Source: Ensifer adhaerens (GTDB taxonomy: Bacteria; Pseudomonadota; Alphaproteobacteria; Rhizobiales; Rhizobiaceae). Taken from it: 64,000 bases of DNA. A program made the position numbers and the translations under genes. Below are positions 40,251-59,079 of the stretch, piece by piece; positions within the stretch are counted from its first letter, which is position 1; the number at the start of each line of letters is the position of its first letter. The notes beneath the pieces are model-generated. The model was not told the DNA's origin, made no database searches, and saw only the letters and a list, made by a program, of their open reading frames with translations. The stretch spans positions 3,715,001 through 3,779,000 of the forward strand of contig NZ_CP118610.1 in NCBI RefSeq assembly GCF_028993555.1, given 5' to 3'.

Positions 40251-41516
40251 CTATCGGATCAGCAGCGCTCGGAAATCGTTGACATTGGTTCCGGTCGGCC
40301 CAGGGACAAAAAGATCTCCGCTCGCCGAAAATGCAGACCAGGCGTCGTGGCGGGCGAGATGCAGACGCGGGTCGATGCCAGCTGCCCGCATGCGGGCGAT
40401 GCTCGCGCCATCGGCAAAGGCGCCCGCATTGTCTTCAGAACCGTCGATGCCGTCCGTGTCAGCCGCGAGCGCATCGATCCCCGAGACACCGTCGATATCG
40501 AGCGCCAGCGACAACAGGAACTCACTGTTGCGTCCGCCCTTGCCATAGTCCTTGCCCGAGATCGTCACCGTCGTCTCGCCGCCGGAAAACAGCACCACCG
40601 GCTTGCCGAAGGGGCGGTTCCTTAGCACCACTTCGCGGGCCAGTGCGGCATGCATGCGGCCGATGTCGCGCGCTTCACCCTCGATCGCATCGGAAAGGAT
40701 GTGGGCCTCGATGCCGAGTTCGCCTGCCTTGGCGGCAGCCGCTTCGAGCGAAACGGCGGCAGAGGCGATGACGTGGCATTCATGACCGGCAAACCGCGGA
40801 TCGTCCGGATCGGGCGCCTTTGCCGCCTCCGAACGCAGATGCCTCATCACCGGGTCGGGAAGCTCCATGCGGTAGCGGGCGACAATTTCAAGCGCTTCAG
40901 CCGCCCTGCTGCGGTCCGGAACGGTCGGCCCGGACGCGACGAAGGCCGGGTTGTCGCCGGGAACGTCGGACACCACCAGACTGACGACACGGGCCGGGAA
41001 GGCGGCTGCAGCAAGCCGCCCGCCCTTGATCCGCGAGACGTGCTTGCGCACGACGTTCATCGCCGAAATCGGAGCCCCCGAGGCAAGCAGCGCCTTGTTG
41101 ACCGCGATCTCGTCGGTGAGTTCCAGGCCCTCCGGGGGAGCCGGCAACAGGGCCGAGCCGCCGCCGGAGATCAGGGCGATAACCAGATCGTCCGATGTCA
41201 GCCCCTCAACTGCCTTTAGCAATGCCTCCGATGCGGCAAGCCCTGCCTCATCAGGCACCGGATGGGCCGATTGAAGCACTGTGATTGTCTCGCACTTCTC
41301 CACCGGTCCGTGCCGCGCCACCACCGTGCCGCTGAAGGGGTGCGGCCAGAGCTTTTCGAAAGCGGCCGCCATCTGGCTTGCCGCCTTGCCCGCGCCGACG
41401 ACCACCGTCCGCCCTTTCGGCGGGTCCGGCAGATGCGCCTTGATCGCCTCGTAAGGGTCGGCGGCTCGAACGGCTTCCTCGAACAGCCGGGTCAGGAAGG
41501 GGCGTGCTTCAATCAT
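40251..41516 (-). CDS. Glycerate 2-kinase (TtuD/GckA, MOFRL family)
   Basis: A 421-residue DUF4147/MOFRL protein. The N-terminal domain shows VVGAGKAASQMAAAFE and ALISGGGSALLPAPP, and the C-terminal MOFRL domain has GGRNSEFLLSLALDI and DTDGIDGSEDNAGAF. Such enzymes phosphorylate D-glycerate to 2-phosphoglycerate; older annotations say hydroxypyruvate reductase. The start is ATG 41516 or GTG 41525, the latter touching the Dabb stop. It is third in the GMC-Dabb-kinase operon, feeding a three-carbon acid into glycolysis. Confidence 0.88.
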   Translation of the reverse strand: MIEARPFLTRLFEEAVRAADPYEAIKAHLPDPPKGRTVVVGAGKAASQMAAAFEKLWPHPFSGTVVARHGPVEKCETITVLQSAHPVPDEAGLAASEALLKAVEGLTSDDLVIALISGGGSALLPAPPEGLELTDEIAVNKALLASGAPISAMNVVRKHVSRIKGGRLAAAAFPARVVSLVVSDVPGDNPAFVASGPTVPDRSRAAEALEIVARYRMELPDPVMRHLRSEAAKAPDPDDPRFAGHECHVIASAAVSLEAAAAKAGELGIEAHILSDAIEGEARDIGRMHAALAREVVLRNRPFGKPVVLFSGGETTVTISGKDYGKGGRNSEFLLSLALDIDGVSGIDALAADTDGIDGSEDNAGAFADGASIARMRAAGIDPRLHLARHDAWSAFSASGDLFVPGPTGTNVNDFRALLIR

Positions 41517-41525
41517 CGCCGCCAC

Positions 41526-41843
41526 TCAGCCGGCAATTTCGAGATCATAGACGAAGATGCCGGCAACACCACCCTCGGCCGCCGCCACGATCTTGGCGCC
41601 GGTCTTGCGATGCTCCTCGTCTTCCAGATAGGCGTCGCGCGCGGTGGCATCGGTGAAATCGACGATGAAGCCCAGACCATGGCCCTTGTCCATGCCCACT
41701 TCCGGGCTGACATTGCCGCCGATATGGGCCGCCATGAAACCGGGCAGCCGTGATTTCAGCGCGACGATCTCGTCGAAGATCGCCGCCTTTTCCTCCTTGG
41801 TGATTTCGGGGCGGAAGCGGATGAAGACGCAATGGCGGATCAT
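41526..41843 (-). CDS. Dabb-family stress-responsive alpha/beta barrel protein
   Basis: A 105-residue ferredoxin-like Dabb domain covering the whole protein: MIRHCVFIRFRPEITKEEK at the start, GGNVSPEVGMDKGHGLGFIVDFTD in the middle. Dabb proteins dimerise, and some catalyse cyclase-type or decarboxylation reactions, but the role here is unknown. It begins seven bases after the GMC stop with GAGG as ribosome-binding site, so it is part of that operon. Confidence 0.85.
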   Translation of the reverse strand: MIRHCVFIRFRPEITKEEKAAIFDEIVALKSRLPGFMAAHIGGNVSPEVGMDKGHGLGFIVDFTDATARDAYLEDEEHRKTGAKIVAAAEGGVAGIFVYDLEIAG

Positions 41844-41850
41844 GGGGACC

Positions 41851-43506
41851 TCAACGGATATCGGCGCGGGCGCGCGGGCGGCTGTCGTTGCGTTCGTGGG
41901 CGAAGATCGCCGGCGGCAGGGGCTGGCGCTCGCGGATGATGTCGGCGCCCTTCTCGCCCATCATGATCGTCGGCCCGTTGGTGTTGCAAGAGGGAACGCG
42001 CGGCATCACCGAGCTGTCGCAGACCCGCAGGCCTTCGAGCCCGCGCACCTTGAGATCGAGGCCGACCACGGCCATCGCGTCCGTGCCCATCTTGCAGGTG
42101 CCGACGGGGTGATGATCGGTCTTGGCATTGGCGCAGCCGTAATCGAAGAATTGCTCGTCGCTCATGACCGAATTGCCCGGCAGGCGCTCCGCCAGCACGA
42201 AAGGCTTCAGCGCTGCCTGCTGCATGATCTCGCGGGCAATCTTCAGACCCTCGATCGACATCCTGCGGTCATGCGGATCCTCCCAGTAGTTGGGATCGAT
42301 CAGCGGCGCCGCCGCCGGATCGGAGGATTTGAGCCGCACCGTGCCGCGCGAGCGCGGATGCAAATAGGCCGAATTCAGCGTCACACCGGCATTCTTCAGC
42401 TTTTCGACGCCGGCCTCGATACCCGAGCCGAGACCGAGATGGAACTGGATGTCCGGCGACCGGGCGTTCGGATCGGCATACCAGAAGCCGCCGGTTTCAA
42501 ACAGGCTTGAAGCCACGGGGCCCGAGCGGAACAGCACGTATTGCAGGCCAGCCCATAGCGTACGATGGAGTTTCGCGACACCGTCATAGGTGTGGTCGCC
42601 GGTGCATTCGGAAATCACGAAAAGGTCGAGGTGATCCTGCAGGTTGCCGCCGACACCCGGCAGATCGTGTTTCACCGAAACGCCGACCGATTTCAGATGA
42701 TCGGCCGGGCCGATGCCAGATTGCAGCAGCAGCTTCGGCGACCCGATGGCACCGGAGGAAACCAGCACTTCCCGCTCCGCCCGGATGATCTCGCTGCCCT
42801 TGCCCGTGACAACCTCAACGCCGACGGCGCGGGTGCCCTCAAGCACGATCCGCGCCACACGCGCGCCGGTGCGAACCGTCAGGTTGCGGCGGTCCTTGAT
42901 CGGCGAGAGATAGGCAAGCGACGCGCTCGAGCGGCGGCGGTTGCGCTGGGTGAGCTGGTAGAAACCTACGCCCGCCTGCTGGCGGCCATTGAAATCGTGG
43001 TTGTAGGGAATGCCGAGTTCCTGGCCGGCGCGGATATACGCGTCGCAGATCGGCAGCGCCGAGACCGGCATCGAGACACCGAGCGGCCCGCCATAGTCGT
43101 GGTAGTCGTCGGCAAAGCGCTGGTTGTCTTCTGAGCGCTTGAAATAGGGAAGCACACTGCGATAGTCCCAACCGGTGCAGCCGTCCTCGGAGGCCCAGAG
43201 ATCGTAGTCGGCGGCATTGCCACGCGTATAGAGCTGGGCGTTGATCGAGGAGCCGCCGCCAATGACCTTGGCCTGGGTATAGCGCAGCGCCCTGCCCTTC
43301 ATGTGCTTCTGCGGCACGGTCTCCCAGCCCCAGCTTGCGACGCCCTTGGTCATCTTGGCAAAACCAGCCGGCATGTGGAACAGCGGGTTCCAGTCGCCGC
43401 CACCGGCTTCCAGCAGCAGGACGCGAACCGACGGGTCTTCGGAGAGCCGGTTGGCAAGAACGCAGCCGGCCGGGCCGGCACCGGTGATGATGTAGTCGTA
43501 GCTCAT
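41851..43506 (-). CDS. GMC-family FAD oxidoreductase (choline/alcohol dehydrogenase type)
   Basis: A 551-residue GMC enzyme oxidising a primary or secondary alcohol. The FAD-binding start is DYIITGAGPAGCVLANRLSE, GMC signature 1 lies around YTQAKVIGGGSSINAQLYTRG, signature 2 at SSGAIGSPKLLLQSGIGP, and the C-terminal His region is DHHPVGTCKMGTDAM. The alcohol is not identifiable; annotation as choline dehydrogenase would be over-specific. It is first gene of an operon with the Dabb protein and glycerate kinase, with a palindromic LacI-type operator 25 bases upstream. Confidence 0.88.
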   Translation of the reverse strand: MSYDYIITGAGPAGCVLANRLSEDPSVRVLLLEAGGGDWNPLFHMPAGFAKMTKGVASWGWETVPQKHMKGRALRYTQAKVIGGGSSINAQLYTRGNAADYDLWASEDGCTGWDYRSVLPYFKRSEDNQRFADDYHDYGGPLGVSMPVSALPICDAYIRAGQELGIPYNHDFNGRQQAGVGFYQLTQRNRRRSSASLAYLSPIKDRRNLTVRTGARVARIVLEGTRAVGVEVVTGKGSEIIRAEREVLVSSGAIGSPKLLLQSGIGPADHLKSVGVSVKHDLPGVGGNLQDHLDLFVISECTGDHTYDGVAKLHRTLWAGLQYVLFRSGPVASSLFETGGFWYADPNARSPDIQFHLGLGSGIEAGVEKLKNAGVTLNSAYLHPRSRGTVRLKSSDPAAAPLIDPNYWEDPHDRRMSIEGLKIAREIMQQAALKPFVLAERLPGNSVMSDEQFFDYGCANAKTDHHPVGTCKMGTDAMAVVGLDLKVRGLEGLRVCDSSVMPRVPSCNTNGPTIMMGEKGADIIRERQPLPPAIFAHERNDSRPRARADIR

Positions 43507-43530
43507 TCCCTGTTTCCCTCCGACGCCGCC

Positions 43531-43548
43531 ATTTGGAACGTTCCAAAT
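43531..43548. promoter_or_regulatory. LacI-type operator upstream of GMC operon
   Basis: ATTTGGAACGTTCCAAAT is a perfect 18-base palindrome with the central CG typical of LacI/PurR-family sites. Its core is the same as the palindrome in front of the LacI gene at 57.6 kb and nearly the same as the one before the DUF993 gene. The position just before the start suggests repression. Confidence 0.75.
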
Positions 43549-43607: not shown

Positions 43608-44387
43608 CTAGAGTCGGCCGATCGACAGGCCACCATCCGCCTGGATCACGGAGCCGGTGGCAAAGGCGAATTTTCCACCGGCAAGCCCTGCCGCGATATT
43701 GCCGATATCATCCGGTTCGCCCCAGCGACGCATCGGCACCAGTCCACCGTCGATCAGCGCGTCGTATTTTCCCGAGACGCCGGCCGTCATGTCGGAACGA
43801 ATGATGCCGGGTCGAATTTCGAAAACCGAGATGCCGGTATTGGCGAGCCGAAGTGCCAGCCCCTGGCTGAAGGCGGCTAGCCCAGCCTTGGTCATGCAGT
43901 AGTCGAGGCGCTCGGGCGAGGTCATCGTCGCCGAAACCGAGGTGATATTGATGATCGACCGTGGTGTCGTACCGGTCGGATCTGTCAGCATCGACACCAG
44001 CACCGCCTGGGTGAAAAACACCGTGCCGCGCAGGTTGGTGGCCACGATCGTGTCGAAATTCTCCGGCAGCAGGTCGAGGAAATCACCACGGACCACCGAG
44101 GCGATGCCGGCATTGTTGACGAGGCAGCGTATAGGACCGAGCTCGGCGCGAATGCGCTCGACGGTCGCCGCATGCCCGCCGACATCGGCAAGGTTTGCCT
44201 CGATGTAGATCGCCCTACCGCTATCGCCCGCAAGTTCGGACAGCGTCTGAGCGGTCGTGGCGTCGGCGACGCCGAGGCCGGTGATGGCGATATCGAATCC
44301 CTCACGGGCAAGCGCGCGGGCAACGCCGAGACCGATGCCGCGGCGGCCGCCGGTGACGATGGCGACGGGACGCGTCGATGCCGTCAT
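43608..44387 (-). CDS. SDR-family oxidoreductase
   Basis: A 259-residue short-chain dehydrogenase similar to FabG-type 3-ketoacyl reductases. TGGRRGIGLG binds NAD(P), NNAG is present, and the active site is Ser in TSVSA with Tyr and Lys in YCMTKAG. It acts on an unknown hydroxyl or keto substrate. It overlaps the upstream GMC gene by four bases, so the two are coupled and probably act in series. GGGAG precedes the ATG at 44387. Confidence 0.9.
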   Translation of the reverse strand: MTASTRPVAIVTGGRRGIGLGVARALAREGFDIAITGLGVADATTAQTLSELAGDSGRAIYIEANLADVGGHAATVERIRAELGPIRCLVNNAGIASVVRGDFLDLLPENFDTIVATNLRGTVFFTQAVLVSMLTDPTGTTPRSIINITSVSATMTSPERLDYCMTKAGLAAFSQGLALRLANTGISVFEIRPGIIRSDMTAGVSGKYDALIDGGLVPMRRWGEPDDIGNIAAGLAGGKFAFATGSVIQADGGLSIGRL

Positions 44388-45895
44388 GTTCGGAACTCCC
44401 TGGTGGCGATATGGTCGGCGACCCTCAGCGCCTGGGCGGCAATTGTCAGCGCCGGATTGACGGCAGCTGAGGTCGGCAGGCAGCCGGCATCGACGACAAA
44501 GAGATTGGGATGATCGAAAGCACGGCAGTAGGTGTCGAGCGGCGCGTCCTTCGGGTCGGTGCCCATCCGCACCGTGCCGCACTGGTGCGACGGCGTGCGC
44601 TTGTCGAACGCTTGGGAAAGCACGATCGGATAGCCCGCAGCCTTGAAGTGCTCGCGCATCTTCGCCTCGAGACTGGAGAGCGCTTCCATGTTGGAGCGTC
44701 GCCACTGCATGATGATGCCCTTGCCATCGACCATGATGCGGCTTTCCGGGTTCGGCAGGTCTTCCGTCATCATGTACCAATCGACCGCATGGCCCGCCAT
44801 GAGGTCGAAGGCGAAGCGCGGTGCCCAGGAGCCAAATCCCCTCGGCGCATTGGCCTTGAGGATATCGGCGTTGATCTTGCCGAGCAGCTGGACATTACCG
44901 AGGGGCAGGCCGTTCCTGCCGCCAGTCAGATAATAATCGTTCAGCATCAGCGTCTTTTGGTAGACGCTGTCATTGCGCTTGAACGGATTGATCGCCAGCA
45001 TGGCGCTGCAATTGTGGTTCATGAAGTTGCGGCCGACCTGGTCGGACGCGTTGGCGAGCCCCTTGCCGTCGCCGGAGCGCAAGAGGATCGCAGCCGAGTT
45101 GATCGCGCCCGCCGACAGGATCACCAGCTTCGGCGACAGCTTCTTCTTCTCGCCTCGATGGGTGTAATGGATCGCCTCGATCCGCCCCCCCGGACCGGCC
45201 TCCAGCGTATCGACATGCGCCGACGTGATCAGCTCGATGTTGGGGTCATTCAGTGCAGCAGCGAGCGATGCGGTCTCGGCATCCTTCTTGCCCTTGCCCG
45301 TATTCGGAAATCCGTCCCAGGGCGTGCGCCCACCGGCAAGCCACGTGTCGATATCGACGCCGAGCGGCAAGGTCGCCGGATGCAAGCCCTGTGCCTTCAA
45401 TTCGGCGCGGGCGCGGGCAATGGCCGGCTCGTCCGGCACCGGGCCGAAAGCGTAGGGCGAGCTATGGAACGGTTCCGTCGGATCGTCGCCCAGTTCGCCG
45501 CGCACCTCGAACAGTTGTTCCGCCTTGCCATACCACGGCTCCAGTTCCTCATAGGGAAAGGGCCAGGCTGGCGAAATGCCGCCGAGATGCTGCATCTCTG
45601 TGAAATCTTCGGCGCGGTAGCGCAACAGCACCGCGCCGAAGAGCTTGGAGTTGCCGCCGACGAAGTAGAAGTTTCCCGGATTGAACTCGGTACCATCAGG
45701 CTCGCGCCACATCTCCCTCGGCCGGAAATGGCCCTTGACGAAGATCGAGCTGTAGCTGCGCGCCTCCGGCGTGTCGGGCAGACGCTCGCCACGCTCGAGG
45801 ATGGTGATACGGGCACCGGAGCCGGCAAGCCCCGCCGCAACGGTGGAGCCGCCGATCCCCGATCCGATGATGACGATGTCCGGCTGCTCCTGCAT
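44384..45895 (-). CDS. GMC-family FAD oxidoreductase
   Basis: A 503-residue GMC oxidoreductase, divergent from the one at 41851-43506. The FAD site is DIVIIGSGIGGSTVAAGLAG, GGNSKLFGAVLLRYRAEDF follows, and the C-terminal His region is SHQCGTVRMGTDP. It belongs to the group that includes sugar dehydrogenases, such as glucoside 3-dehydrogenase-like enzymes. It starts six bases after the importer ATPase gene, so its substrate is probably what the importer brings in. No signal peptide is visible, so it is probably cytoplasmic. Confidence 0.87.
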   Translation of the reverse strand: MQEQPDIVIIGSGIGGSTVAAGLAGSGARITILERGERLPDTPEARSYSSIFVKGHFRPREMWREPDGTEFNPGNFYFVGGNSKLFGAVLLRYRAEDFTEMQHLGGISPAWPFPYEELEPWYGKAEQLFEVRGELGDDPTEPFHSSPYAFGPVPDEPAIARARAELKAQGLHPATLPLGVDIDTWLAGGRTPWDGFPNTGKGKKDAETASLAAALNDPNIELITSAHVDTLEAGPGGRIEAIHYTHRGEKKKLSPKLVILSAGAINSAAILLRSGDGKGLANASDQVGRNFMNHNCSAMLAINPFKRNDSVYQKTLMLNDYYLTGGRNGLPLGNVQLLGKINADILKANAPRGFGSWAPRFAFDLMAGHAVDWYMMTEDLPNPESRIMVDGKGIIMQWRRSNMEALSSLEAKMREHFKAAGYPIVLSQAFDKRTPSHQCGTVRMGTDPKDAPLDTYCRAFDHPNLFVVDAGCLPTSAAVNPALTIAAQALRVADHIATREFRT

Positions 45896-45901: not shown

Positions 45902-47017
45902 TTACGCGATCCGCTGCTGGCTTTGCGGGTCGAAGAACACCGCCTTGTCGAGATTGAACGCAAGCCGCGAAGTCTGGCCGGCCGCAATGCGGGCATCGGC
46001 CCTGAGCCGGGCAACGATTTCCTTGCCACCGAGGCGGGTGACCGCGAACGTATCGGAGCCTGCGGGCTCGACCACCTCGATCAGGCATTCGCCCTCGGCG
46101 ACCACCTTGGCATTACGGTCGGCGCCGTCAGGGTCGGTGAGCGCTTCCGGACGGATGCCGAAGATTACGTCCTTGCCGGCATAGGCCGAGAGTGCGCCGT
46201 TGGCATGCGGTACCGCCAGCTTCAGCGGCTCGGCATTCGGCCGCGCCAGGGTGACGGCAACATCGGAGCCGCTCTTTTCGATCCGCGCGGTCAGAAGGTT
46301 CATTGCCGGCGAGCCCATGAAGTCGGCGACGAACATGTTGGCCGGGTTGTTATAGATCTCAGCCGGCGTCCCGAACTGCTGCAAAACGCCGTCCTTCAGC
46401 ACTGCAATCTTGGTTGCCAGCGTCATCGCCTCGATCTGGTCGTGGGTGACGTAGACGATCGTCGTCTTCATACGGTTGTGCAGCCGCTTGATCTCGGTGC
46501 GCATGTCGACGCGCAGCTTGGCGTCGAGGTTGGAGAGCGGCTCGTCGAACAGGAAGACCTGCGGATTGCGCACCAGCGCACGGCCCATGGCGACACGCTG
46601 GCGCTGGCCGCCGGAAAGCTGGCTTGGCTTGCGGTCGAGCAGATGGCCGATCTGCAGCATGTCGGCGACCTGCTTGATCGCCTTCTCGCGCTCTTCCTTC
46701 GGTACGCCACGGATTTCCATGCCGAAGGCGATGTTTCCGGCGACCGTCATGTTCGGATAGAGCGCGTAGGATTGGAACACCATGGCGATGTCGCGCTTCG
46801 AGGGATGCAGGTCGGCAACCGAGCGGCCATTGATGGCGATCTCGCCCGAGGTGATCGGCTCCAGACCGGCGATTGTGTTGAGAAGCGTGGACTTGCCGCA
46901 GCCGGACGGGCCGACAAGCACAAGGAAACCACCCTTTTCGATCTCCAGGTTGATGTCCTTCAGGATCTCGAGCGAGCCATAGGATTTGCGCAGGTTGCTG
47001 ATTTTCAAGAAAGACAT
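45902..47017 (-). CDS. Carbohydrate ABC transporter ATP-binding protein (UgpC/MsmK type)
   Basis: A 371-residue ATPase. Walker A is GPSGCGKST, the Q-loop VFQSYALYPNMTV, the signature LSGGQRQR, Walker B VFLFDEPLSNLDAKLR and the H-loop YVTHDQIEAMTLA. A C-terminal TOBE regulatory domain (about 240-370) marks the CUT1 sugar importer class. It starts four bases after the second permease gene. Confidence 0.93.
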   Translation of the reverse strand: MSFLKISNLRKSYGSLEILKDINLEIEKGGFLVLVGPSGCGKSTLLNTIAGLEPITSGEIAINGRSVADLHPSKRDIAMVFQSYALYPNMTVAGNIAFGMEIRGVPKEEREKAIKQVADMLQIGHLLDRKPSQLSGGQRQRVAMGRALVRNPQVFLFDEPLSNLDAKLRVDMRTEIKRLHNRMKTTIVYVTHDQIEAMTLATKIAVLKDGVLQQFGTPAEIYNNPANMFVADFMGSPAMNLLTARIEKSGSDVAVTLARPNAEPLKLAVPHANGALSAYAGKDVIFGIRPEALTDPDGADRNAKVVAEGECLIEVVEPAGSDTFAVTRLGGKEIVARLRADARIAAGQTSRLAFNLDKAVFFDPQSQQRIA

Positions 47018-47021: not shown

Positions 47022-47903
47022 TTATCCTTTCACGGCGCCCGACATCAGCCCGCGAACGAAGTAGCGGCCGGACACGATGTAGACGATGAGCGTTGGCAGG
47101 GCGGCGAGGATCGCGCCCGCGAAGTGAACGTTGTATTCCTTGACCCCTGTCGAGGACGAAACGAGGTTGTTGAGCGCGACCGTCATCGGCGTCGAATAGG
47201 GGCCGGAGAAGGAAGCACCGAACAGGAAGTCGTTCCAGATGTTGGTGAACTGCCAGATGACCGAGACGACGACGATCGGACCGGAGGACGGCAGCAGGAT
47301 GCGCCAGAAGATCTGGAAGAAGCTGGCGCCGTCGATCTGCGCCGCACGCACCAACTCGGTCGGAAACGCCTCGTAGTAGTTGCGGAAGTAAAGTGTCGTG
47401 AAGCCGATGCCGTAGATCACATGAACGAAGATCAGGCCCCAGATCGAACCGGCGAGCCCGAGGATGCCGAGGATGCGCGCCATCGGGATCAGGACGATCT
47501 GGAACGGGATGAAGCAGGACAGAAGCAGCATACCGAAGAAGATGTTGGCACCGGGAAAGCGCCATTTCGTCAGCACGTAACCGTTGAGCGCGCCGACGAT
47601 CGTCGAGATCGCCACGGCCGGAACGACCATCAGGATCGAATTGATGAAGAAGGGTTTCAGGCCCGTCGGCTGCACGCCGATCTGCGCCGTCGACCAGGCC
47701 TGAAGCCAGGGCTCGATCGTAAAGGTCTGCGGCAGGTTGAGCATGCCGCCCTGGCGGATCTCGTCGAGCGGCTTCACCGAATTCACCAGCATCACGTAGA
47801 GCGGCAGCAGCGAATAGAGCGCAAAGAGGATCAGCGCGGTGTAGATCAACGCCCGGGTGAGGCGGTTGTGCGAAATGATGTTGTCTGGGCTCGGAGCGCT
47901 CAT
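47022..47903 (-). CDS. Carbohydrate ABC transporter permease, MalG type
   Basis: A 293-residue inner-membrane permease with six predicted helices. The EAA loop is YYEAFPTELVRAAQIDGASFFQIFWRILLPSSGP. The long N-terminal periplasmic segment after helix 1 (VNSVKPLDEIRQGG) is typical of MalG. It overlaps the MalF-type gene by one base of the ATGA junction. Confidence 0.92.
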   Translation of the reverse strand: MSAPSPDNIISHNRLTRALIYTALILFALYSLLPLYVMLVNSVKPLDEIRQGGMLNLPQTFTIEPWLQAWSTAQIGVQPTGLKPFFINSILMVVPAVAISTIVGALNGYVLTKWRFPGANIFFGMLLLSCFIPFQIVLIPMARILGILGLAGSIWGLIFVHVIYGIGFTTLYFRNYYEAFPTELVRAAQIDGASFFQIFWRILLPSSGPIVVVSVIWQFTNIWNDFLFGASFSGPYSTPMTVALNNLVSSSTGVKEYNVHFAGAILAALPTLIVYIVSGRYFVRGLMSGAVKG

Positions 47904-48781
47904 CAGCGTTTTGCTCCCCGGATTTCGGAATAGAGATACGGAACGATGATCGAGAAGATCATCACCAGCATGATGATCGCCGAGGACGCGCCGATGCCCA
48001 TCTGGTTGCGGGTAAAGGTGTAGGAATACATGAAGGTCGCCGGCAGTTCGGTCGCCTGGCCCGGGCCGCCGCCCGTCAAGGCGATGATCAGGTCGTAGGC
48101 CTTGATCGCCAGATGCGCGAGCACCACGAAGGCCGAGAGAAACACCGGCCGCATCAGCGGAATGATGATCCGGCGATAGATCGTCGATGTCTTGGCGCCG
48201 TCGATCTGCGCCGCCTTGATGATCTCGTTGTCGACGCCGCGCAGACCCGCCAGGAACATCGCCATGATGAAGCCGGTCGACTGCCAGACCGCAGCGATGA
48301 CGACGCAGTAGATGGCGTAGTTGCGGTCCTTGATCCAGTTGAAGGAGAAGCTCTCCCAGCCCCAGAGATGCATGGTGTTTTCAAGACCGATGCCGGGATC
48401 GAGGAACCACTTCCACGCCGTTCCGGTCACGATGAAGGAAAGCGCCATCGGATAAAGGTAGATTGGCCGCAGGAATCCTTCGGCGCGGATCTTCTGGTCG
48501 AGCAGGATCGCCAGCCCAAGGCCAAGCACCGAGCAGATGGCGATATAGAGCGCGGCGAAGATCGCCAGGTTGCTTACCGCCCGCCACCAGTGCGGCAGCG
48601 CCCACAGCTTCGCATAGTTGCTCAGGCCGACGAAATTGTAGGACGGCAGCATCTTGCTGTCCGTCATCGACAGGAAGCCGGTATAGGCAATGAAACCATA
48701 GACAAAGATCAGGACGATGAGGAAGCTCGGGGCAAGGACCAGCTTCGGTATCAGGTCCTGCAGGCGACTGCGGCTATCCAT
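47903..48781 (-). CDS. Carbohydrate ABC transporter permease, MalF type
   Basis: A 292-residue permease, six helices, EAA loop LRGVDNEIIKAAQIDGAKTSTIYRRIIIPLMRP. The conserved LTGGGPGQATE segment follows. It forms the membrane channel with the MalG-type partner. It is separated from the binding-protein gene by 172 bases holding a strong hairpin. Confidence 0.92.
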   Translation of the reverse strand: MDSRSRLQDLIPKLVLAPSFLIVLIFVYGFIAYTGFLSMTDSKMLPSYNFVGLSNYAKLWALPHWWRAVSNLAIFAALYIAICSVLGLGLAILLDQKIRAEGFLRPIYLYPMALSFIVTGTAWKWFLDPGIGLENTMHLWGWESFSFNWIKDRNYAIYCVVIAAVWQSTGFIMAMFLAGLRGVDNEIIKAAQIDGAKTSTIYRRIIIPLMRPVFLSAFVVLAHLAIKAYDLIIALTGGGPGQATELPATFMYSYTFTRNQMGIGASSAIIMLVMIFSIIVPYLYSEIRGAKR

Positions 48782-50296: not shown

Positions 50297-50419
50297 TTCA
50301 GCAAGTCAAGCATTCCGCCATTTTGTATTTTAGCACCTTCGGAACCGTTTGAATTTACTGACTTATATAGCACACATTAGCTTTTGCAGTGCAGCAAACC
50401 ATGCCGCAATGCGAGATTT

Positions 50420-50429
50420 AAAACGTTTT
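50420..50429. promoter_or_regulatory. LacI operator candidate, regulator side
   Basis: AAAACGTTTT, a perfect 10-base palindrome inside TTTAAAACGTTTTCAT, 73 bases before the LacI start. Together with the site at 50281 it could support looping and autoregulation. The rest of the 303-base gap (50199-50501) is AT-rich promoter sequence without a gene. Confidence 0.55.
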
Positions 50430-50501
50430 CATGATTCGATTGCCTAAGCGTTCGCACCACGTTACAAAACCCGCTCTCGCCCGCTTTCAGGATGACTAGC
50501 A

Positions 50502-51566
50502 TTGGCCGATCCCTCCAAGCCCGCCCACCACGAAGACAGTGGCGCCGCCGCCAAACGCGGCAAGCCGACCCTTCGCACGATCGCGGAAATCACCGGCCTT
50601 GCGGTCACCACCGTTTCGCGCGCGCTCTCCGATGCGCCGCAGATTTCCATCGAGACCCGCAAACGGGTGCGCGAGGTCGCTGACGAGATCGGCTACTCGC
50701 CCGACCGCGCCGCCCAGCGCCTGAAGACCGGCCGCACCAACGTCATCGGCGTGCTGCTCGACCCGCATGAGGAAATCCTCGGCTACGGCACCTCGATCAT
50801 GAGCGGTATCGCCAAGGCGCTGCAGGGCACGGCGTTTCACCTGATCGTCATGCCGAACTTCCTGAACTCGACCAATGTCGAAGCGGTCAACTACATCACC
50901 CGCAACGGCATGGCCGACGGCCTGATCTTCTCGCGCACCGAACCGCTCGATCCGCGCGTGCGGCTGCTCTCCGATCTGGGCTTTCCCTTCGTCACCCATG
51001 GGCGCACGGAGCTTTCGACCCCGCACCCTTACGTCGACTACGACAACTTCACCTTTTCCTATCAGGCAACGAAGCGCCTGATCGCCAAGGGCAGGCGCAA
51101 ACCGGCGCTGATCAGCGGTCCGGCCGACTTCACCTTCGCCGGCCACCTGCAGCACGGCTTCATGACCGCCGTGCGCGAGGCTGGCTGCGCCTACGAGATC
51201 CTCTCGGGCATCGACCTCGACAGCCCCGCCGGCGCGATCCGCGACCGCATCCGCCAGCGCTACGCCGAGCCCGATCCGCCTGACAGCTTCATGTGCGGCG
51301 GCGAGGTCTGTGCGCTTGCGACCATCACCGGCATGAGCGATTGCGGGCTGACGCTCGGCCGCGAATACGACATCGTTGCCAAGCAGACCTCGCACCTCTT
51401 GAGCGCCATCCAGCCGCAGGTCGAGACGATCTACGAGGACCTGACCGCAACCGGCGAGGACATGGGCCGGGTGCTGCTGCAGAAGATCGGCGGCGAAAGC
51501 GACGTCAGCAAGCTGCAATTGCTGCTCTGTCCGCAGATCCCATCGAGCTTCGACGCGGCCGGCTAG
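50502..51566 (+). CDS. LacI-family regulator of the sugar importer
   Basis: A 354-residue LacI/GalR repressor. The helix-turn-helix is PTLRTIAEITGLAVTTVSRALSDAPQIS, followed by a hinge helix (YSPDRAAQRLKTGRTNVIGVLL) and a periplasmic-binding-protein-like sugar domain. The start is TTG at 50502 behind CAGGATG, giving a 20-residue lead before the DNA-binding domain. It is divergent from the importer operon and probably represses it. Confidence 0.92.
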   Translation: MADPSKPAHHEDSGAAAKRGKPTLRTIAEITGLAVTTVSRALSDAPQISIETRKRVREVADEIGYSPDRAAQRLKTGRTNVIGVLLDPHEEILGYGTSIMSGIAKALQGTAFHLIVMPNFLNSTNVEAVNYITRNGMADGLIFSRTEPLDPRVRLLSDLGFPFVTHGRTELSTPHPYVDYDNFTFSYQATKRLIAKGRRKPALISGPADFTFAGHLQHGFMTAVREAGCAYEILSGIDLDSPAGAIRDRIRQRYAEPDPPDSFMCGGEVCALATITGMSDCGLTLGREYDIVAKQTSHLLSAIQPQVETIYEDLTATGEDMGRVLLQKIGGESDVSKLQLLLCPQIPSSFDAAG

Positions 51567-51665: not shown

Positions 51666-53174
51666 TTAACGCGGCATCCACCAGCCGGTGCGCGCGCCCA
51701 TATGCATGTTGAGTGTCTTCGTCTCGGTGTAGTCTTCCACCGCGTGCCGGCCGAGCTCGCGACCAAGACCGGATTGCCGGTAGCCGCCAAAGGGAAGCTC
51801 CGACGCACCATCCATGAAGGTGTTCATCCAGATGGTGCCGGCGCGCACGCGGCGGCCGATCGCCAGGCAGGTGTCGAAATCGCGGCTCCACACACCGGCC
51901 GAAAGGCCATAGTCGATCGCATTGGCGATGCGGATCGCCTCTTCCGTCGTCTCGAAAGTCAAGACGGAAAGAACCGGGCCGAACACTTCTTCACGCGCCA
52001 CTGCCATGTCGGGCCGGACGGAAGAAAGGATCGTCGGCGCCATGAACTGGCCCATGCCGAGATCGAGCGCCGTGCCGCCATGGGCAACCGCTGCCCCTTC
52101 CTTCGACGCGGCAGAAACATAGCCGGCAATCTTTTCCAGGTGCTGTGGCGTAACGATCGCGCCGACCTGGGTTTCCGGGTCGAGCGGATCGCCGACCTTG
52201 ACCTTGGCCGAAAGCTCGGCGATGCGGCGCGTCACCTCGTCGGCGATGTCGCGGTGCAGAATCAGACGCGAGCCGGCATTGCAGCATTCGCCGGCGTTGA
52301 AATAGGCGCCGAATACGGCGGCATCGATGAACTCGTCGAGATTGGCGTCCGGGAAGACGATCTGCGGGTTCTTGCCGCCGAGCTCCAGCGACACCTTCTT
52401 GAGGGTCTGTGCGGCATTGGCCATGGTGAGGCGACCGACACCGGTCGAGCCAGTGAAGGATACCATGTCGACATCCGGATGTGTCGTCATCGGCGCACCG
52501 ACCTCGGGACCCGTGCCGGTGATGATGTTGACGACTCCAGCGGGAACGCCGGCGGCTTCCAGGATTTCGCCGAGCAGCAGCGTCGAGGCGGAGGTCAGCT
52601 CCGACGGCTTGACGACCGTGGTGCAGCCGGCAGCAAGCGCAAACGGCAGCTTCTGGCTGACGATCAGGAAGGGGAAGTTCCAGGGCGTGATGATCGAGAC
52701 GACACCAATCGCCTCGCGCAGCACGACGCCGAGCGTGCCATCGCCAAGCGTGTTATAGCTTTCGCCGTGCAGATCGCGGGCGAGAGCGGCGGCGTAGCGC
52801 CAGATATCGGCAGCACCGCCGAGTTCACCCTTGGCCTGGCTGATCGGCTTGCCGGATTCGATCGCGTCGAGATAGGCAAGCTCGTCGGCGCGCTCGGCGA
52901 TGATGTCAGCGGCACGCAGCAGCACCAGCGAGCGCTGCGATGCGGTCATGCGCGGCCAGGCGCCCTCGTCGAAGGCACGGCGGGCGGCGGCGATCGCCTT
53001 TTCGGCGTCGACTTTCGTGCCCGCCTGATAGCGGCTGACGACGACGCCATGGCCCGGCGCCACGCGCTCGATCGTGCGCCCTTCGGCACTGTCCACCCAT
53101 TTGCCGTCGATCAGCATCTGGAAGGCACGGACCTTGTGGCCTTCGATCGGCTTGGGTTTCACGAGCACGGTCAT
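51666..53174 (-). CDS. NAD(P)-dependent aldehyde dehydrogenase
   Basis: A 502-residue ALDH superfamily enzyme of the betaine-aldehyde/2-hydroxymuconic type. The NAD site is ITPWNFPFLIVSQKLPFALAAGCTTVVKPSE, the catalytic Glu is in LELGGKNPQ, and the nucleophile Cys is in NAGECCNAGSR. The substrate aldehyde is unknown. It starts at the ATG sharing one base with the crotonase stop (TAATG). It is the last gene of the LacI-led operon. Confidence 0.9.
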   Translation of the reverse strand: MTVLVKPKPIEGHKVRAFQMLIDGKWVDSAEGRTIERVAPGHGVVVSRYQAGTKVDAEKAIAAARRAFDEGAWPRMTASQRSLVLLRAADIIAERADELAYLDAIESGKPISQAKGELGGAADIWRYAAALARDLHGESYNTLGDGTLGVVLREAIGVVSIITPWNFPFLIVSQKLPFALAAGCTTVVKPSELTSASTLLLGEILEAAGVPAGVVNIITGTGPEVGAPMTTHPDVDMVSFTGSTGVGRLTMANAAQTLKKVSLELGGKNPQIVFPDANLDEFIDAAVFGAYFNAGECCNAGSRLILHRDIADEVTRRIAELSAKVKVGDPLDPETQVGAIVTPQHLEKIAGYVSAASKEGAAVAHGGTALDLGMGQFMAPTILSSVRPDMAVAREEVFGPVLSVLTFETTEEAIRIANAIDYGLSAGVWSRDFDTCLAIGRRVRAGTIWMNTFMDGASELPFGGYRQSGLGRELGRHAVEDYTETKTLNMHMGARTGWWMPR

Positions 53175-53953
53175 TACCATTCTCCCTTGAATTGGGCTTC
53201 ACGCTTCTCGGTGAAGGCGGCGACGCCTTCCTTGAGGTCTCCGGTCTTGGCGACAAGGATCGAGCCGAGCGCTTCGACCGCCGCGCCATTGTCTTCGCCA
53301 TTTGCCGAAGCGATCATCAGTTTCGAAATTTCAAGCGCCGCGGGACCACGTTTGGCGACACGCGCGGCGTAGTCGCGAGCAGCCGCGAGAACCGTTCCGG
53401 TCTCGACGACGGCATCGACCAGACCTTCCTTCAGGGCAGCCTCGGCCGTAAACATCTCGCCGCCGAGCACCATACGCCTGACGATCTGCGCGCCGAAGCG
53501 GGAGACCAGCCGCTGTGTGCCCGACCAACCGGGCACCATGCCGAGGCTCGTCTCCGGCAGGCCGATCTTGATTTGGGCCTCGGCCAGGCGGATATCGGCA
53601 GCGGCGGCAAGTTCTAGCCCGCCGCCGAGCGCGTGGCCATTGAGGGCGGCGATGACAGGCATGCGCAAGGTCGCCAGCCGCTCGAACACGCGGTGGCCGA
53701 AACGCACCCAGTCATGACCGAACTCGGGCGCGTCCATGCCGCCCCAGGCCTTGATGTCGCCGCCGGCGGAAAATGCCTTGCCTTCGCCGGTGAGAATGAC
53801 GACGCGCACGTTGCGATCGCCCTCGACCGTGTCACAGGCAGAGGCCAATGCCTTCAGCATGTCGATGTCGAAGGCATTGAGCTTTTCCGGACGGGCGACC
53901 GTCATGGTCGCGATCGGCCCATCCACCTCGATGCGGATGCGTCCCTCAGCCAC
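53174..53953 (-). CDS. Crotonase-superfamily protein (enoyl-CoA hydratase/isomerase)
   Basis: A 259-residue crotonase fold protein acting on acyl-CoA. The oxyanion-hole segments are AFSAGGDIKAWGG and NGHALGGGLELAAAADIRLA. The first catalytic Glu is kept in LPETSLGMVPGWSGTQRL. The second Glu of classical hydratases (in the position of rat Glu164) is Arg in FGAQIVRRMVLGG, so a plain hydratase is doubtful and an isomerase, decarboxylase or hydrolase is possible. The start is GTG at 53953 with GGGGGAGG five bases upstream. It overlaps the CoA-transferase stop. Confidence 0.87.
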   Translation of the reverse strand: MAEGRIRIEVDGPIATMTVARPEKLNAFDIDMLKALASACDTVEGDRNVRVVILTGEGKAFSAGGDIKAWGGMDAPEFGHDWVRFGHRVFERLATLRMPVIAALNGHALGGGLELAAAADIRLAEAQIKIGLPETSLGMVPGWSGTQRLVSRFGAQIVRRMVLGGEMFTAEAALKEGLVDAVVETGTVLAAARDYAARVAKRGPAALEISKLMIASANGEDNGAAVEALGSILVAKTGDLKEGVAAFTEKREAQFKGEW

Positions 53954-55565
53954 GATCGCCTCCCCCAATCTTGCGCATCGGCTTCTTCGGCAATTCGAGA
54001 CCGATCAGGGCGTCCTGGAACAGCGCGGCGTCCATGGTCTTGAGTTTGTCGGAAACGATCAGCGGGAACTCGGACTGGTCGAGAATATGCGCCTGCAGAT
54101 CGACGCCCGGCGCGATCTCCGTCAGCATCACGCCCTCAGGCGTCAGCTTCATCACGCAGCGCTCGGTCACATAGGTGATGTCCTGGCCCTGCTCGATGCC
54201 GCGACGGCCGGAGAAGGTGACGTGTTCGACCTCGTTGACCAGCTTCTTCAGCTTGCCTTCCTTTTCGATCATCAGCTTGCCGTCGGCGATCGCGAGCTTG
54301 GCGCCGGCATTGAACATGCCGGAAAAGACGATCTTCTTCGCCCGTGCAGTGATGTCGACGAAGCCACCGGCACCGGCCGTCACATGCGGGCGGAAGGAGA
54401 GCTTCGAGACGTTGACCGAACCATGACGGTCGATCTCGAGGAACGAGAGCAGCGAGGCATCGAAGCCGGCACCCTGGAAGTAGGTGAACTGATAGGGCGA
54501 AGGCATGAAGGCATCGGCATTCGAGGCGCAGCCGAAGGCGAAGTCCAAGAGCGGCACGCCGCCGACGGCGCCCTGCTCGATCACCCAGGTGACGGCACCA
54601 TGCAGCCCCTCTTCGAGCAGGATGCGCGGCACGTTGGCCGAGATGCCGAAGCCGAGATTGACGGCGCTGCCGGCCTGCAGTTCCTGCGCCACGCGACGGG
54701 CAATCACCTTCTGGATGTTGAACTCCGGCACACGGAAACTGTCGAGCGGCCGGAAGATCTCGCCCGAGATCGCCGGATCGTAAAGCGTCTGGGTCGTCTG
54801 CTTCTGGTCGGGATCGACGATGACGTAGTCCACCAGCACGCCCGGCACGCGCACGTCATGGGGCTTCAGCGACCCTTCCTTGGTGATGCGCTTGACCTGG
54901 GCAATGACGATGCCGCCATTGTTGCGGGCGGCGAGCGCCTGGTCGAGACCGCCGAGATAGGCGCCCTCATGCTCATAGGTAAGGTTGCCGCGTTCGTCCG
55001 CCGTCGTCGCACGGATGATCGCCACCTGAGGCGCGATCGCCTTGAAATACAGCCAGTCCTCGCCCTCGAAGGAGACTTTCTTCACGACAGGCTCGGCCGC
55101 AGCCGAGGCGTTCATCGCGCAGCCTTCGCGCGCCGGGTCGACGAAGGTGTCGAGACCGACCTTGGTCATCACACCCGGTCGCTTGGCCGCGGCTTCGCGA
55201 TGCATGTCGAAGAGAATGCCCGAGGGGATGTTGTAGGCGGCCACTTCGTCTGAACCGATCATCTGCCAGATCAGCGGTGGTTCCGCGCTCGACGGACCGG
55301 AAGGATAGGAGCCGCCGATGATCCTTTTCAGCAGGCCCTTCTTGGCGATGTAGTCGACACCCTTGATGCCGCTCATGTCGCCGGCGGCGATCGGGTGCAG
55401 CGTGGTGAGATCGCGTGGGTGGCCGGTCGTCTCGAAGCGCTCGCCGATCGCCTTCAGCATCAGGTCCGGGCAACCGAGGCCGCTGGACGACGAGACGGAG
55501 ACCACTGCGCCATCCGGGATCAGGGCAGCCGCTTCGGCCGGCGAGATATGCTTGTTCATCGACAT
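53946..55565 (-). CDS. Acyl-CoA:carboxylate CoA-transferase (family I)
   Basis: A 539-residue single-chain family I CoA-transferase (fused alpha and beta subunits, YdiF/propionate CoA-transferase type). The N-terminal half has GAVVSVSSSSGLGCPDLMLKAI, and the catalytic Glu is expected in VTWVIEQGAVGGVPL. It activates an organic acid to its CoA ester using acetyl-CoA or succinyl-CoA. It is four bases after the dehydrogenase gene and overlaps the crotonase, so the pathway product is handled as a CoA ester. Confidence 0.9.
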   Translation of the reverse strand: MSMNKHISPAEAAALIPDGAVVSVSSSSGLGCPDLMLKAIGERFETTGHPRDLTTLHPIAAGDMSGIKGVDYIAKKGLLKRIIGGSYPSGPSSAEPPLIWQMIGSDEVAAYNIPSGILFDMHREAAAKRPGVMTKVGLDTFVDPAREGCAMNASAAAEPVVKKVSFEGEDWLYFKAIAPQVAIIRATTADERGNLTYEHEGAYLGGLDQALAARNNGGIVIAQVKRITKEGSLKPHDVRVPGVLVDYVIVDPDQKQTTQTLYDPAISGEIFRPLDSFRVPEFNIQKVIARRVAQELQAGSAVNLGFGISANVPRILLEEGLHGAVTWVIEQGAVGGVPLLDFAFGCASNADAFMPSPYQFTYFQGAGFDASLLSFLEIDRHGSVNVSKLSFRPHVTAGAGGFVDITARAKKIVFSGMFNAGAKLAIADGKLMIEKEGKLKKLVNEVEHVTFSGRRGIEQGQDITYVTERCVMKLTPEGVMLTEIAPGVDLQAHILDQSEFPLIVSDKLKTMDAALFQDALIGLELPKKPMRKIGGGDRG

Positions 55566-55569: not shown

Positions 55570-57608
<2,039 letters not shown>

Positions 57609-57647: not shown

Positions 57648-57665
57648 AATTGGAACGTTCCAATT
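57648..57665. promoter_or_regulatory. Autoregulatory LacI operator
   Basis: AATTGGAACGTTCCAATT is a perfect 18-base palindrome with central CG, 40 bases upstream of the LacI start. It shares the TTGGAACGTTCCAA core with 43531-43548. Confidence 0.8.
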
Positions 57666-57850
57666 TCGTCAAGAGATGGCTGATCACTTTTTTCACGTCG
57701 CCTGGCTTTGAGCAGGAACATCTGGCGTCTTCTGGTCGCGCTTTCCCATATCATATTCCATATTAATGCGCTGAAAAATAAAGATATTAACCAGAATCCG
57801 CGATTGTCGGAGGGAAGCGCGTCGTCATCCAAAATAGAATGCCGCTTGCC

Positions 57851-57868
57851 ATTTGGAACGATCCAAAG
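57851..57868. promoter_or_regulatory. LacI operator upstream of the DUF993 gene
   Basis: ATTTGGAACGATCCAAAG matches the same palindrome with one mismatched pair next to the centre (A instead of T), 39 bases before the DUF993 start. It lies in the divergent region shared with the LacI gene. Confidence 0.7.
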
Positions 57869-57906
57869 TATTCCAAGACAAACTTCCGCGGAGGAGACCA
57901 ACCCCC

Positions 57907-59079
57907 ATGACTAGCCTGACGCTGCCGCGCCAAGACGGTTCGCTAGAAGAATACCGCCTGACGGGAACGCCGATCGCGCGGCCGCAGACGCCGCCGATCT
58001 TCAATCGCATTGCCTATGCCGCCGCCCATGTGGTCTCGGATCCGCTGCGCGATCTCGATCCCTGGGGCAAGCCGGCCATCGACTGGGATGCGACGATGGC
58101 CTTCCGTCACCACCTCTGGCGGCTCGGCTTCAAGATCGCCGAGGCGATGGATACCGCTCAGCGCGGCATGGGGCTTGCCTGGCCGGGCGCGCAGCAACTG
58201 ATCCGCCGCTCGCTCGCCGAAGCGCGACAGGTCCCGGGTGCCGACCTCGCCTGTGGCGCCGGCACCGACCATCTGGCGCCGGCCGATACGCGATCGCTGG
58301 ATGACGTGATTGCGGCCTATGAGGAACAGGTGGGCTTCGTCGAGGGTGAGGGGGGCAGGGCAATCATGATGGCCAGCCGGGCGCTTGCGCGCGTCGCCCG
58401 TTCCGCCGACGACTATCGCCACGTCTATGGACGCATTCTCGGCCAGATCAGGCACAAGGTGGTGCTGCACTGGCTCGGCGACATGTTCGACCCGCAACTC
58501 AAGGGCTACTGGGGCTCCGAAGACTTCGACCAGGCACTCGATACGGTGCTATCGATCATCGAAGCCAACCGCGACAAGGTGGAAGGCATCAAGATCTCGC
58601 TGCTCGACAACGCCAAGGAAGTGGCGCTCCGCAATCGCCTGCCGGACGGCGTTCTCTGCTTCACCGGCGACGACTTCAACTATGCGGAACTGATCGAGGG
58701 CGACGGCAACAGGTACAGCCATGCGCTTCTCGGTATCTTCGATGCGGTGGCACCCTCGGCCTCCACGGCGCTCGCAGCACTCGCGAGGAGCGATCTCGCC
58801 ACTTTCCGCGGCGTGATCGAGCCGACCGTGCCCTTGTCGCGCAAGATCTTCGAGGCGCCGACGCAATATTACAAAGCCGGCGTCGTTTTCCTTGCCTGGC
58901 TAAACGGGCATCAGCGCCACTTCACCATGCCCGCCGGCATGCAATCCGCCCGCGGGGTGCTGCACTACGCCGACATCTTCCGCCTTGCCGACCGCGCCAA
59001 TGTGCTCGACCGGCCGGACCTGGCGGCGCAGAGAATGAAAAGCCTGCTATCGACCCTCGGCGTGGACCAGGGCGCGTAA
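57907..59079 (+). CDS. DUF993 protein, dihydrodipicolinate synthase-like TIM barrel
   Basis: A 390-residue cytoplasmic protein of the DUF993 family, related to class I aldolases of the DHDPS type. A candidate Schiff-base Lys is K229 in VEGIKISLLD, placed like the lysine of the VGIKE motif in DHDPS. The reaction is unknown; an aldolase or dehydratase step on a keto acid or sugar is the best guess. The ribosome-binding site is GGAGGAGA. It is divergent from the LacI operon and preceded by the shared palindrome. Confidence 0.8.
   Translation: MTSLTLPRQDGSLEEYRLTGTPIARPQTPPIFNRIAYAAAHVVSDPLRDLDPWGKPAIDWDATMAFRHHLWRLGFKIAEAMDTAQRGMGLAWPGAQQLIRRSLAEARQVPGADLACGAGTDHLAPADTRSLDDVIAAYEEQVGFVEGEGGRAIMMASRALARVARSADDYRHVYGRILGQIRHKVVLHWLGDMFDPQLKGYWGSEDFDQALDTVLSIIEANRDKVEGIKISLLDNAKEVALRNRLPDGVLCFTGDDFNYAELIEGDGNRYSHALLGIFDAVAPSASTALAALARSDLATFRGVIEPTVPLSRKIFEAPTQYYKAGVVFLAWLNGHQRHFTMPAGMQSARGVLHYADIFRLADRANVLDRPDLAAQRMKSLLSTLGVDQGA

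Follow-up and report, generated by a model that had tools for sequence, protein, structure and literature searches.

A conserved palindrome and a proposed local LacI-family regulon in Ensifer adhaerens, probably for catabolism of 1,5-anhydro-D-fructose or a relative

Introduction

Which genes are governed by a palindrome that recurs around a LacI-family gene, and on what substrate would their products act? We analyzed a window of 64,000 nucleotides from Ensifer adhaerens (NZ_CP118610.1, positions 3,715,001 to 3,779,000); all coordinates below are window coordinates. An earlier note had proposed that two perfect 18-base palindromes, at 43531 and 57648, and a one-mismatch copy at 57851 tie three transcription units into one uncharacterised LacI regulon. 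The palindromes are present at all three places, and Pfam upheld the identities of the genes that had been named, the NCBIfam matches of these genes (glycerate kinase included) being mostly under curated cut-offs. The proposed regulon is of the ordinary local LacI-family kind. We believe, with a probability of roughly 60%, that the regulator, LacI1, is a local, self-regulating repressor and that the regulon is for breaking down 1,5-anhydro-D-fructose or a 1,5-anhydrohexitol akin to it.

Results

LacI1 (56568..57608, minus strand) was assigned from profile matches and helix conservation. PF00356, PF13377 and other models match it above cut-off, giving it the DNA-binding and sugar-binding domains of the LacI type, and the 12 residues of its recognition region are unchanged in 162 of 165 loci, a set that includes overlapping stretches from one genome. 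Putative operator 1 (AATTGGAACGTTCCAATT, 57648..57665), a perfect palindrome before LacI1 whose CTTGAC and TTAT flanks are kept in relatives, spans the spacer between a -35 box TTGACG (57672-57667) and a -10 box TTATGA (57649-57644) on the minus strand. Operator 2 (57851..57868), found by site scan and conservation, precedes DUF993, has one core mismatch, and lies in the spacer between TTGCCA (57846-57851) and TATTCC (57869-57874). The hexamers at both sites were read by eye and are not listed by a consensus promoter scan. The position of the palindrome between the -35 and -10 boxes at two sites suggests that a LacI1 dimer bound to TTGGAACGTTCCAA would block both divergent promoters, the one for lacI1-afr-CoA transferase-crotonase-ALDH and the one for DUF993. 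A sugar metabolite would release LacI1. We also considered DNA looping between the divergent sites. Their spacing (47 distinct values at 74 loci) has no helical phasing, and looping is thus unsupported.

The palindrome is confined to this locus. In the whole 7.77-Mb genome, TTGGAACGTTCCAA has two exact copies and one copy with one mismatch, with no other place at 0 or 1 mismatch and hence no scatter at random positions. Six further places have two mismatches, and five of the six sit within stop-to-stop open frames of at least 255 codons. The total at up to two mismatches is 9, against 7 for a reversed control pattern, and we do not count these extra places as operators. In 199 genomes of the family, E. 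adhaerens included, the exact palindrome occurs at 30 places in 25 genomes (the reversed control at 2 places), and all 30 are at this locus, adjoining LacI1, CoA-transferase, Gfo/Idh or GMC1. On the genome and family searches we reject a chance origin, even though a search of the window alone at up to three mismatches is not significant (three places, a number also reached by 21 of 100 shuffles). The divergent units are kept in many related genera, and in 77 of 80 named relatives each side of the LacI/DUF993 gap has a site. For this count, the 700 bases before DUF993 were divided into two distance bins and sites with up to three mismatches were accepted. Two loci count as one-sided, L051, where the contig ends, and L118, whose two sites share the nearer bin; L100 has no site. 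Thus, a CG-centred palindrome precedes the regulator and its proposed targets and is kept in relatives.

The gene next to lacI1 suggests a substrate. Its Gfo/Idh/MocA product (55570..56571, minus strand) is identical over the whole protein at 285 of 333 residues (86%) to 4koa, which we take to be an S. meliloti protein, and at 292 of 331 (88%) to 2glx, the 1,5-anhydro-D-fructose reductase of Sinorhizobium morelense. Such high identity to a characterised enzyme over its full length marks it as a likely orthologue, which would use NADPH to reduce anhydrofructose to anhydromannitol. The S. meliloti gene for this reductase is presumably SMc04400, and since the regulator gene neighbours the reductase gene here, SMc04401 is probably the S. 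meliloti counterpart of LacI1. Galardini et al. (2015) used a SMc04401 binding motif and give a mean regulon of 4.04 genes (PMC4560400). With a motif for the probable orthologue of LacI1 already in print and a reductase this close to a studied enzyme, the regulon can no longer be called wholly uncharacterised. In the summary of the published S. morelense pathway, neither the operon nor the regulator of the reductase is given a part (PMC12441222).

Three genes on the same strand would act on CoA esters and aldehydes. Profile matches identify a FadX-like family I CoA-transferase (53946..55565), which starts at 55565 or 55559 (the longest ORF reaches 55769, inside the reductase gene) and contains EQG, presumably the glutamate motif of that family. 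A crotonase or enoyl-CoA hydratase (53174..53968), assigned by profile and motif, carries GGGLELA and GLPETSLG, which we take to be the motifs of both catalytic glutamates. An NAD(P) aldehyde dehydrogenase (ALDH; 51666..53180) was recognized by profile matches. The ALDH homologue, like the glycerate 2-kinase-like protein of the third unit, scores under the NCBIfam equivalog cut-offs.

We surveyed 70 stretches (69 loci, L174-L242, plus the window), picked via DUF993 or GMC1 matches or the palindrome and thus biased to conserved cases, with gene identity called by tblastn similarity. CoA-transferase, crotonase, ALDH, GMC2 and GMC1 are all in view in 44 of them. DUF993, the reductase and the SDR are all present in 37 of these clusters and all absent from 7, counts that are not independent events as the genomes are related. 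Glycerate kinase is in view in 17 of the 37 and in none of the 7; wherever it is missing, this may reflect stretch ends. The 7 clusters retain the palindrome, which makes the regulon core independent of the reductase, and they have another Gfo/Idh gene downstream of GMC1. The single such protein run against NCBIfam, from L194, has levoglucosan dehydrogenase as its best match, below cut-off. In L180, also one of the 7, palindromes lie between CoA-transferase and malonyl-CoA synthase.

These clusters are what one would expect if the reductase were promiscuous, the true substrate were another glucose-like sugar or sugar acid, and the CoA-transferase-crotonase-ALDH core were the real pathway with reductase, SDR and DUF993 as an add-on. 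The transporter gene SMc04396, which we have taken as encoding the binding protein of the ABC system described below, is induced by dextrin (PMC4960864), as would also fit. Against this, 37 of 44 clusters have the reductase alongside the core, mostly directly after LacI1, and the S. morelense enzyme came from a strain isolated on anhydrofructose (PMC12441222). We regard another substrate as a substantial possibility, the less probable of the two. This and the other alternatives below are not mutually exclusive.

The third proposed unit comprises GMC1, a choline-dehydrogenase-like GMC oxidoreductase (41851..43506; profile matches), a Dabb dimeric alpha/beta-barrel protein (41526..41843; Pfam) and a glycerate 2-kinase-like protein (DUF4147/MOFRL, 40251..41525; NCBIfam glycerate 2-kinase models below cut-offs), all on the minus strand. 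Operator 3 (ATTTGGAACGTTCCAAAT, 43531..43548) is a perfect palindrome in the SDR-GMC1 gap, with the GMC1 start 25 bases downstream. Among the best 30 GMC1 places scanned, this site is kept in 3 of 3 loci of the same genus and in 0 of 27 others, where GMC1 lies downstream of GMC2, mostly with SDR in between, and its own site is absent. The third-unit site is therefore almost exclusive to this genus, a difference also from the SMc04401 system of S. meliloti. One LacI, one operator, the divergent LacI and DUF993 units and the lack of stray genome copies uphold the single regulon claimed earlier, and the membership of GMC-Dabb-glycerate kinase has to be qualified.

LacI1 might control only the two divergent promoters, with the GMC1 site a recent, weak or non-functional copy. 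Besides its absence from 27 of the 30 loci, neither clear promoter hexamers nor a terminator was found in 43480-43660, so read-through from SDR into GMC1 could occur. However, all three same-genus genomes scanned retain the perfect 18-base palindrome although more distal bases of the gap vary, the short stretch immediately before it is also kept, and L180 likewise has a site near GMC1. On balance we think this reading of the site rather improbable. We suspect instead that, in this genus, the third site, downstream of ABC-GMC2-SDR, lets LacI1 gate GMC1-Dabb-glycerate kinase, either as a promoter operator or as a road-block.

The genes between these units, at 43608-50198, were absent from the earlier note. 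On the minus strand, they encode an ABC sugar-binding protein (48954..50198) near 4r2b and proteins annotated as glucose- or sugar-binding, permeases 1 (47903..48781) and 2 (47022..47903) and a MalK-like ATPase (45902..47017), all three from profile matches, the FAD sugar-dehydrogenase-like GMC2 (44384..45895), closest to bacterial glucose and fructose dehydrogenases, and an SDR reductase (43608..44390; PRK12745, above the curated cut-off). A second LacI-family regulator, LacI2 (50502..51566, plus strand; profile match), is divergent from them and probably controls this ABC-GMC2-SDR operon. Site comparison gives a proposed LacI2 operator, ATTTAAAACGTTATAAAT (50280..50297), before the binding protein, and a site search a second LacI2-type site, ATTTAAAACGTTTTCAT (50416..50432). 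These sites are A/T-rich and precede the intervening operon; ATTTAAAACGTTR recurs at every named locus with a LacI2 gene (24 of 24).

DUF993 (PF06187; 57907..59079, plus strand) was examined by Pfam, fold prediction and alignment. The predicted fold is a TIM barrel of the dihydrodipicolinate synthase (DHDPS) type. In the DHDPS/NAL superfamily, a lysine on strand beta-6 forms the Schiff base and a tyrosine on beta-5 has a catalytic role. Lys229 of DUF993 lies on beta-6 (225-231), does not vary in two alignments, of 31 and of 10 sequences, and aligns with the DHDPS GVK/GIK motif in a weak profile match (E 0.0035, probability 9%). Like its fold neighbours DHDPS, MosA and YagE, the modelled protein combines the barrel with a strand-6 lysine in a GIK-type motif and GDD on strand 7. 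In contrast, its chain is longer, it is 11-15% identical to them among the rows listed, and strand 5 (185-190; VVLHWL) has His/Trp and no tyrosine where the weak profile alignment pairs the strand with the YN motif. Absence of a fold from the structure-neighbour lists was not counted as evidence. Thus, in the model DUF993 shares the DHDPS/NAL fold and lysine, and we assign it to no known enzyme type. SMc04132 (4dnh) has 56-57% identity and the same fold. It appears to belong to a group of DUF993 proteins with 58-62% identity, at whose loci (L176-L178, L184, L185, L188) Gfo/Idh genes adjoin DUF993, with neither CoA genes nor a palindrome at up to two mismatches. The other DUF993 clusters examined also have no palindrome at up to two mismatches, except for one place in L288; two sites in L294 are part of a main cluster.

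Discussion

We postulate the following sequence of events for the preferred reading, catabolism of 1,5-anhydro-D-fructose or a relative. The substrate would enter via the ABC system, GMC2 and the reductase would adjust the redox state at C2, and GMC1 and ALDH would convert the primary alcohol to an acid. The acid could then be activated with CoA and undergo crotonase chemistry, followed by Schiff-base cleavage by DUF993 and conversion of glyceraldehyde to glycerate and 2-phosphoglycerate. The earlier note had likewise suggested oxidation of a polyol or sugar acid and cleavage by DUF993, with which the predicted fold agrees. It placed the CoA ester on one branch after cleavage and glycerate on the other; the CoA step may instead come before cleavage. 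The scheme gives the SDR and Dabb proteins no step.

A more specific version, in our view unlikely, is a new aerobic route in which 1,5-anhydrohexitols undergo CoA-dependent ring opening to 2-keto-3-deoxy-D-gluconate before aldol cleavage by DUF993. The ether ring of these compounds is chemically inert. 1,5-Anhydro-D-mannitol would be oxidised to an acid at C6 and receive CoA from the CoA-transferase; the crotonase would dehydrate C4-C5, and hydration of the enol ether would open the ring. As a 2-keto-3-deoxygluconate aldolase, DUF993 would then yield pyruvate and D-glyceraldehyde, with ALDH and glycerate kinase finishing the pathway. This ending would correspond to the lower branch of the non-phosphorylative Entner-Doudoroff pathway, which uses a KDG aldolase, a glyceraldehyde dehydrogenase and a glycerate 2-kinase; the ALDH and glycerate 2-kinase-like homologues are candidates for the last two. 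By a Fischer-projection argument worked by hand, the D-erythro product arises only from the manno configuration, the one that the reductase makes. This would account for the reduction of anhydrofructose to the mannitol rather than the glucitol form.

Mannose can be catabolised without a CoA-transferase, a crotonase or a glycerate kinase. This bears on the published route, in which a P450-like enzyme hydroxylates anhydromannitol, formed from anhydrofructose, at C1 to give mannose (Kuhn 2006, as reviewed in PMC12441222). If that route is right, the CoA genes are not needed for it, which counts against a CoA pathway, and the other genes would act on additional substrates while sharing the repressor. 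However, profile searches of the 16 genes gave no P450 or other clear oxygenase family, unless the Dabb protein conceals one, and three of them would have no role in mannose use. We doubt that this route accounts for the locus. That the palindromes belong to another regulator or to chance is very improbable: the genome has 34 LacI-domain matches, one of them a LacI with a partly similar helix (VSKSTVARVL) and AACGTTCC-containing sites nearby, but exact copies are restricted to this locus in 25 genomes, and the LacI1 helix and site are conserved jointly.

The regulon resembles those of AglR and ThuR in Rhizobiales, which, as described by Ravcheev et al. 2014 (PMC4052901), also have a self-regulated LacI protein, a CG-centred palindrome, a divergent operon and few local genes. 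It differs from them in its operator, TTGGAACGTTCCAA, which is not among the motifs printed for those regulators, and in having three units with CoA-transferase, crotonase and DUF993 enzymes.

Our analysis places anhydrofructose reductase among about 16 genes that are conserved as a set and would mostly answer to one shared operator. It offers a testable function for the DUF993 family, for which a structure exists (4dnh) and we found no assigned function. The locus also supplies candidates for the genes by which sugars of the 1,5-anhydroglucitol type are broken down aerobically. According to a 2025 review, no analogous oxidative route has been described for 1,5-anhydroglucitol (PMC12441222). 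Our own literature searches, one on DUF993 and one on the enzyme set, matched no paper, a statement that extends only to those searches.

Two neighbouring reading frames were also considered. A TonB receptor (59152-61350) was set aside as a regulon member, being of the siderophore type. The ORF list pairs the LacI2 gene, which is missing from the earlier note, with a shadow ORF on the opposite strand (50496-51641, minus); the latter has no family match, and we read LacI2 as the gene.

A palindrome confined to one proposed regulon

The earlier note had tied three transcription units together by a shared palindrome, and the copies were confirmed. One copy lies 25 to 40 bases upstream of each of three start codons, those of GMC1 (palindrome at 43531-43548), of the proposed repressor gene LacI1 (57648-57665) and of the divergent DUF993 gene (57851-57868, with one core mismatch). 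These are the only places with 0-1 mismatch in a search of the whole 7.77-Mb genome. Allowing two mismatches adds six more, for a total of nine versus seven for a reversed control pattern, and long stop-to-stop frames enclose five of the six. Among 199 family genomes (including this one), the exact 14-mer was found at 30 places in 25 genomes, compared to 2 for the reversed control. All 30 have LacI1, the CoA-transferase gene, the Gfo/Idh gene or GMC1 as a neighbour.

The 12-residue recognition region of LacI1 is kept in 162 of 165 loci, in homologues down to 37% identity, and is one residue off in the remaining three (L079, L241, L186). Two low-identity loci, L175 and L186, are on stretches cut off short of the operon's first gene, with no promoter site in view; the sites for L175 were found in the neighbouring stretch L201. 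SKSTVSL is exclusive to LacI1 among the 30 proteins fetched of the 34 LacI-domain matches in the genome. Another LacI (L259), with the helix VSKSTVARVL, has AACGTTCC-containing sequences close by, upstream of its own coding sequence and where the next permease gene begins (L007, 332-349 and 1501-1514), hinting at a recognition code common with LacI1.

Predicted promoters in the LacI1-DUF993 gap

In 77 of 80 named loci (the best 80 of 593 by DUF993 similarity), each of the two distance bins of the gap contains a site with at most three mismatches. Two loci have sites in one bin (L051, where the contig ends, and L118, whose two sites both fall in the nearer bin), and only L100 has none in either. 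The consensus, CTTGAC..ATTTGGAACGTTCCAATTAT, places the palindrome inside the spacer of a sigma-70-type promoter. The lacI1-side flank differs in some loci, e.g., the Mesorhizobium group. Judged by eye, the hexamers in the window are TTGACG-17-TTATGA for lacI1 and TTGCCA-17-TATTCC for DUF993; neither pair is listed by a consensus promoter scan at its own thresholds. Repressor bound in the spacer would block RNA polymerase. Looping between the two gap sites is unsupported because their spacings, which range from 84 to 405 bases, show no helical phasing.

A regulon core with a replaceable module

DUF993, the reductase and SDR are all present in 37 of the 44 clusters that show the five core genes, all absent in seven, and mixed in none. 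In the seven, a different Gfo/Idh protein follows GMC1; the one tested, from L194, is levoglucosan-dehydrogenase-like, below the NCBIfam cut-off. Palindromes with two or fewer mismatches persist in 43 of the 44, the lone exception being L237, a stretch that breaks off within the reductase gene and does not reach the promoter. Therefore, the regulon has a core of CoA-transferase, crotonase, ALDH, transporter (43 of 44) and two GMC enzymes, and its redox-and-cleavage module is replaceable.

Two clusters without DUF993 adjoin a gene for a 700-residue FAD_binding_2 protein that is fumarate-reductase-like (L179, 2270-4372; L197, 3564-5675). In another (L180, 13362-16744), two palindromes lie between the CoA-transferase gene and a divergent gene for malonyl-CoA synthase, again a step of CoA activation.

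LacI2 and the site near GMC1

A second regulator, LacI2 (50502-51566, +), was not mentioned in the earlier note. It is divergent from an operon (50198-43608, -) encoding a sugar-binding protein, two permeases, an ATPase, GMC2 and SDR. The gap upstream of this operon is in view in 69 of the 80 named loci; LacI2 is present there in 24, and in all 24 a ATTTAAAACGTTR site lies ahead of the binding-protein gene. Of the remaining 45, L118 has a gap of 1386 bases and all others one of 66-276 bases; in these 45 the ABC genes are therefore probably part of the LacI1 operon.

Among the 30 best GMC1 loci, GMC1-Dabb-glycerate kinase (43506-40251, -) has its own palindrome in 3 of 3 from the same genus and 0 of 27 others. 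Four of the 44 complete clusters have a site near GMC1: the window, two other genomes of the genus, and L180, which is of the other cluster type. It is plausible that insertion of LacI2 split one operon and that LacI1 later regained the operon tail. The GMC1 site is missing in 12 of the 15 complete clusters with LacI2.

A possible pathway

An enzyme closely related to the Gfo/Idh reductase (55570-56571, -) is reported by others to reduce anhydrofructose to anhydromannitol, according to an excerpt of a review (PMC12441222). Hydrolysis at an anomeric carbon is not available for opening a 1,5-anhydro ring, which lacks such a carbon. C6 oxidation, CoA activation and elimination by the crotonase could produce an enol ether that would open upon hydration, as unsaturated uronates do. 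The manno configuration would make the product 2-keto-3-deoxy-D-gluconate, which DUF993 might cleave, with ALDH and glycerate 2-kinase performing the final steps. This CoA-dependent route accounts for most of the genes, leaving SDR and Dabb outside its steps, and we give it a probability of roughly 0.2. The published account, in the same excerpt (PMC12441222), names C1 hydroxylation to mannose in its place.

Further DUF993 loci contain Gfo/Idh genes and no CoA genes; therefore, DUF993 as such has no fixed link with CoA chemistry. A second DUF993 cluster in the same genome (L174, 6473-19901, and L200) contains genes for CoA-transferase, crotonase, GMC, ALDH, glycerate kinase, SDR, DUF993, an AP-endonuclease-2-type protein and ETF. 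It has no palindrome within two mismatches and appears to encode a paralogous pathway. We take SMc04401 to be the S. meliloti counterpart of LacI1. The set of 41 motifs employed by Galardini et al. (PMC4560400) includes the one for SMc04401, in an excerpt that gives no function alongside, and SMc04132 and SMc04390 occur in one gene table in an excerpt of a PhaR study (PMC12542648). LacI regulons of this local type are well known (excerpt of PMC4052901); the present regulon belongs with them, and its pathway is tentative.

Neighbouring genes

A TonB-dependent siderophore-type receptor gene (59152-61350, -) is convergent with DUF993, and such a receptor also adjoins DUF993 in L026 (same genus) and L040. 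Beyond it, a single open frame (61409-62941, +) combines a LysR-type HTH domain (residues 44-103) with a protein of the glycosyl transferase family that exceeds the cut-off of NF006564. If real, this fusion would be unusual; the NF006564-matching part is presumably TrpD2/YbiB-like. Beside the glycerate kinase gene is a class III aminotransferase gene (38755-40143, +), above cut-off for the omega-aminotransferase AptA, with homologues at the cluster edge in L204, L219 and L225.
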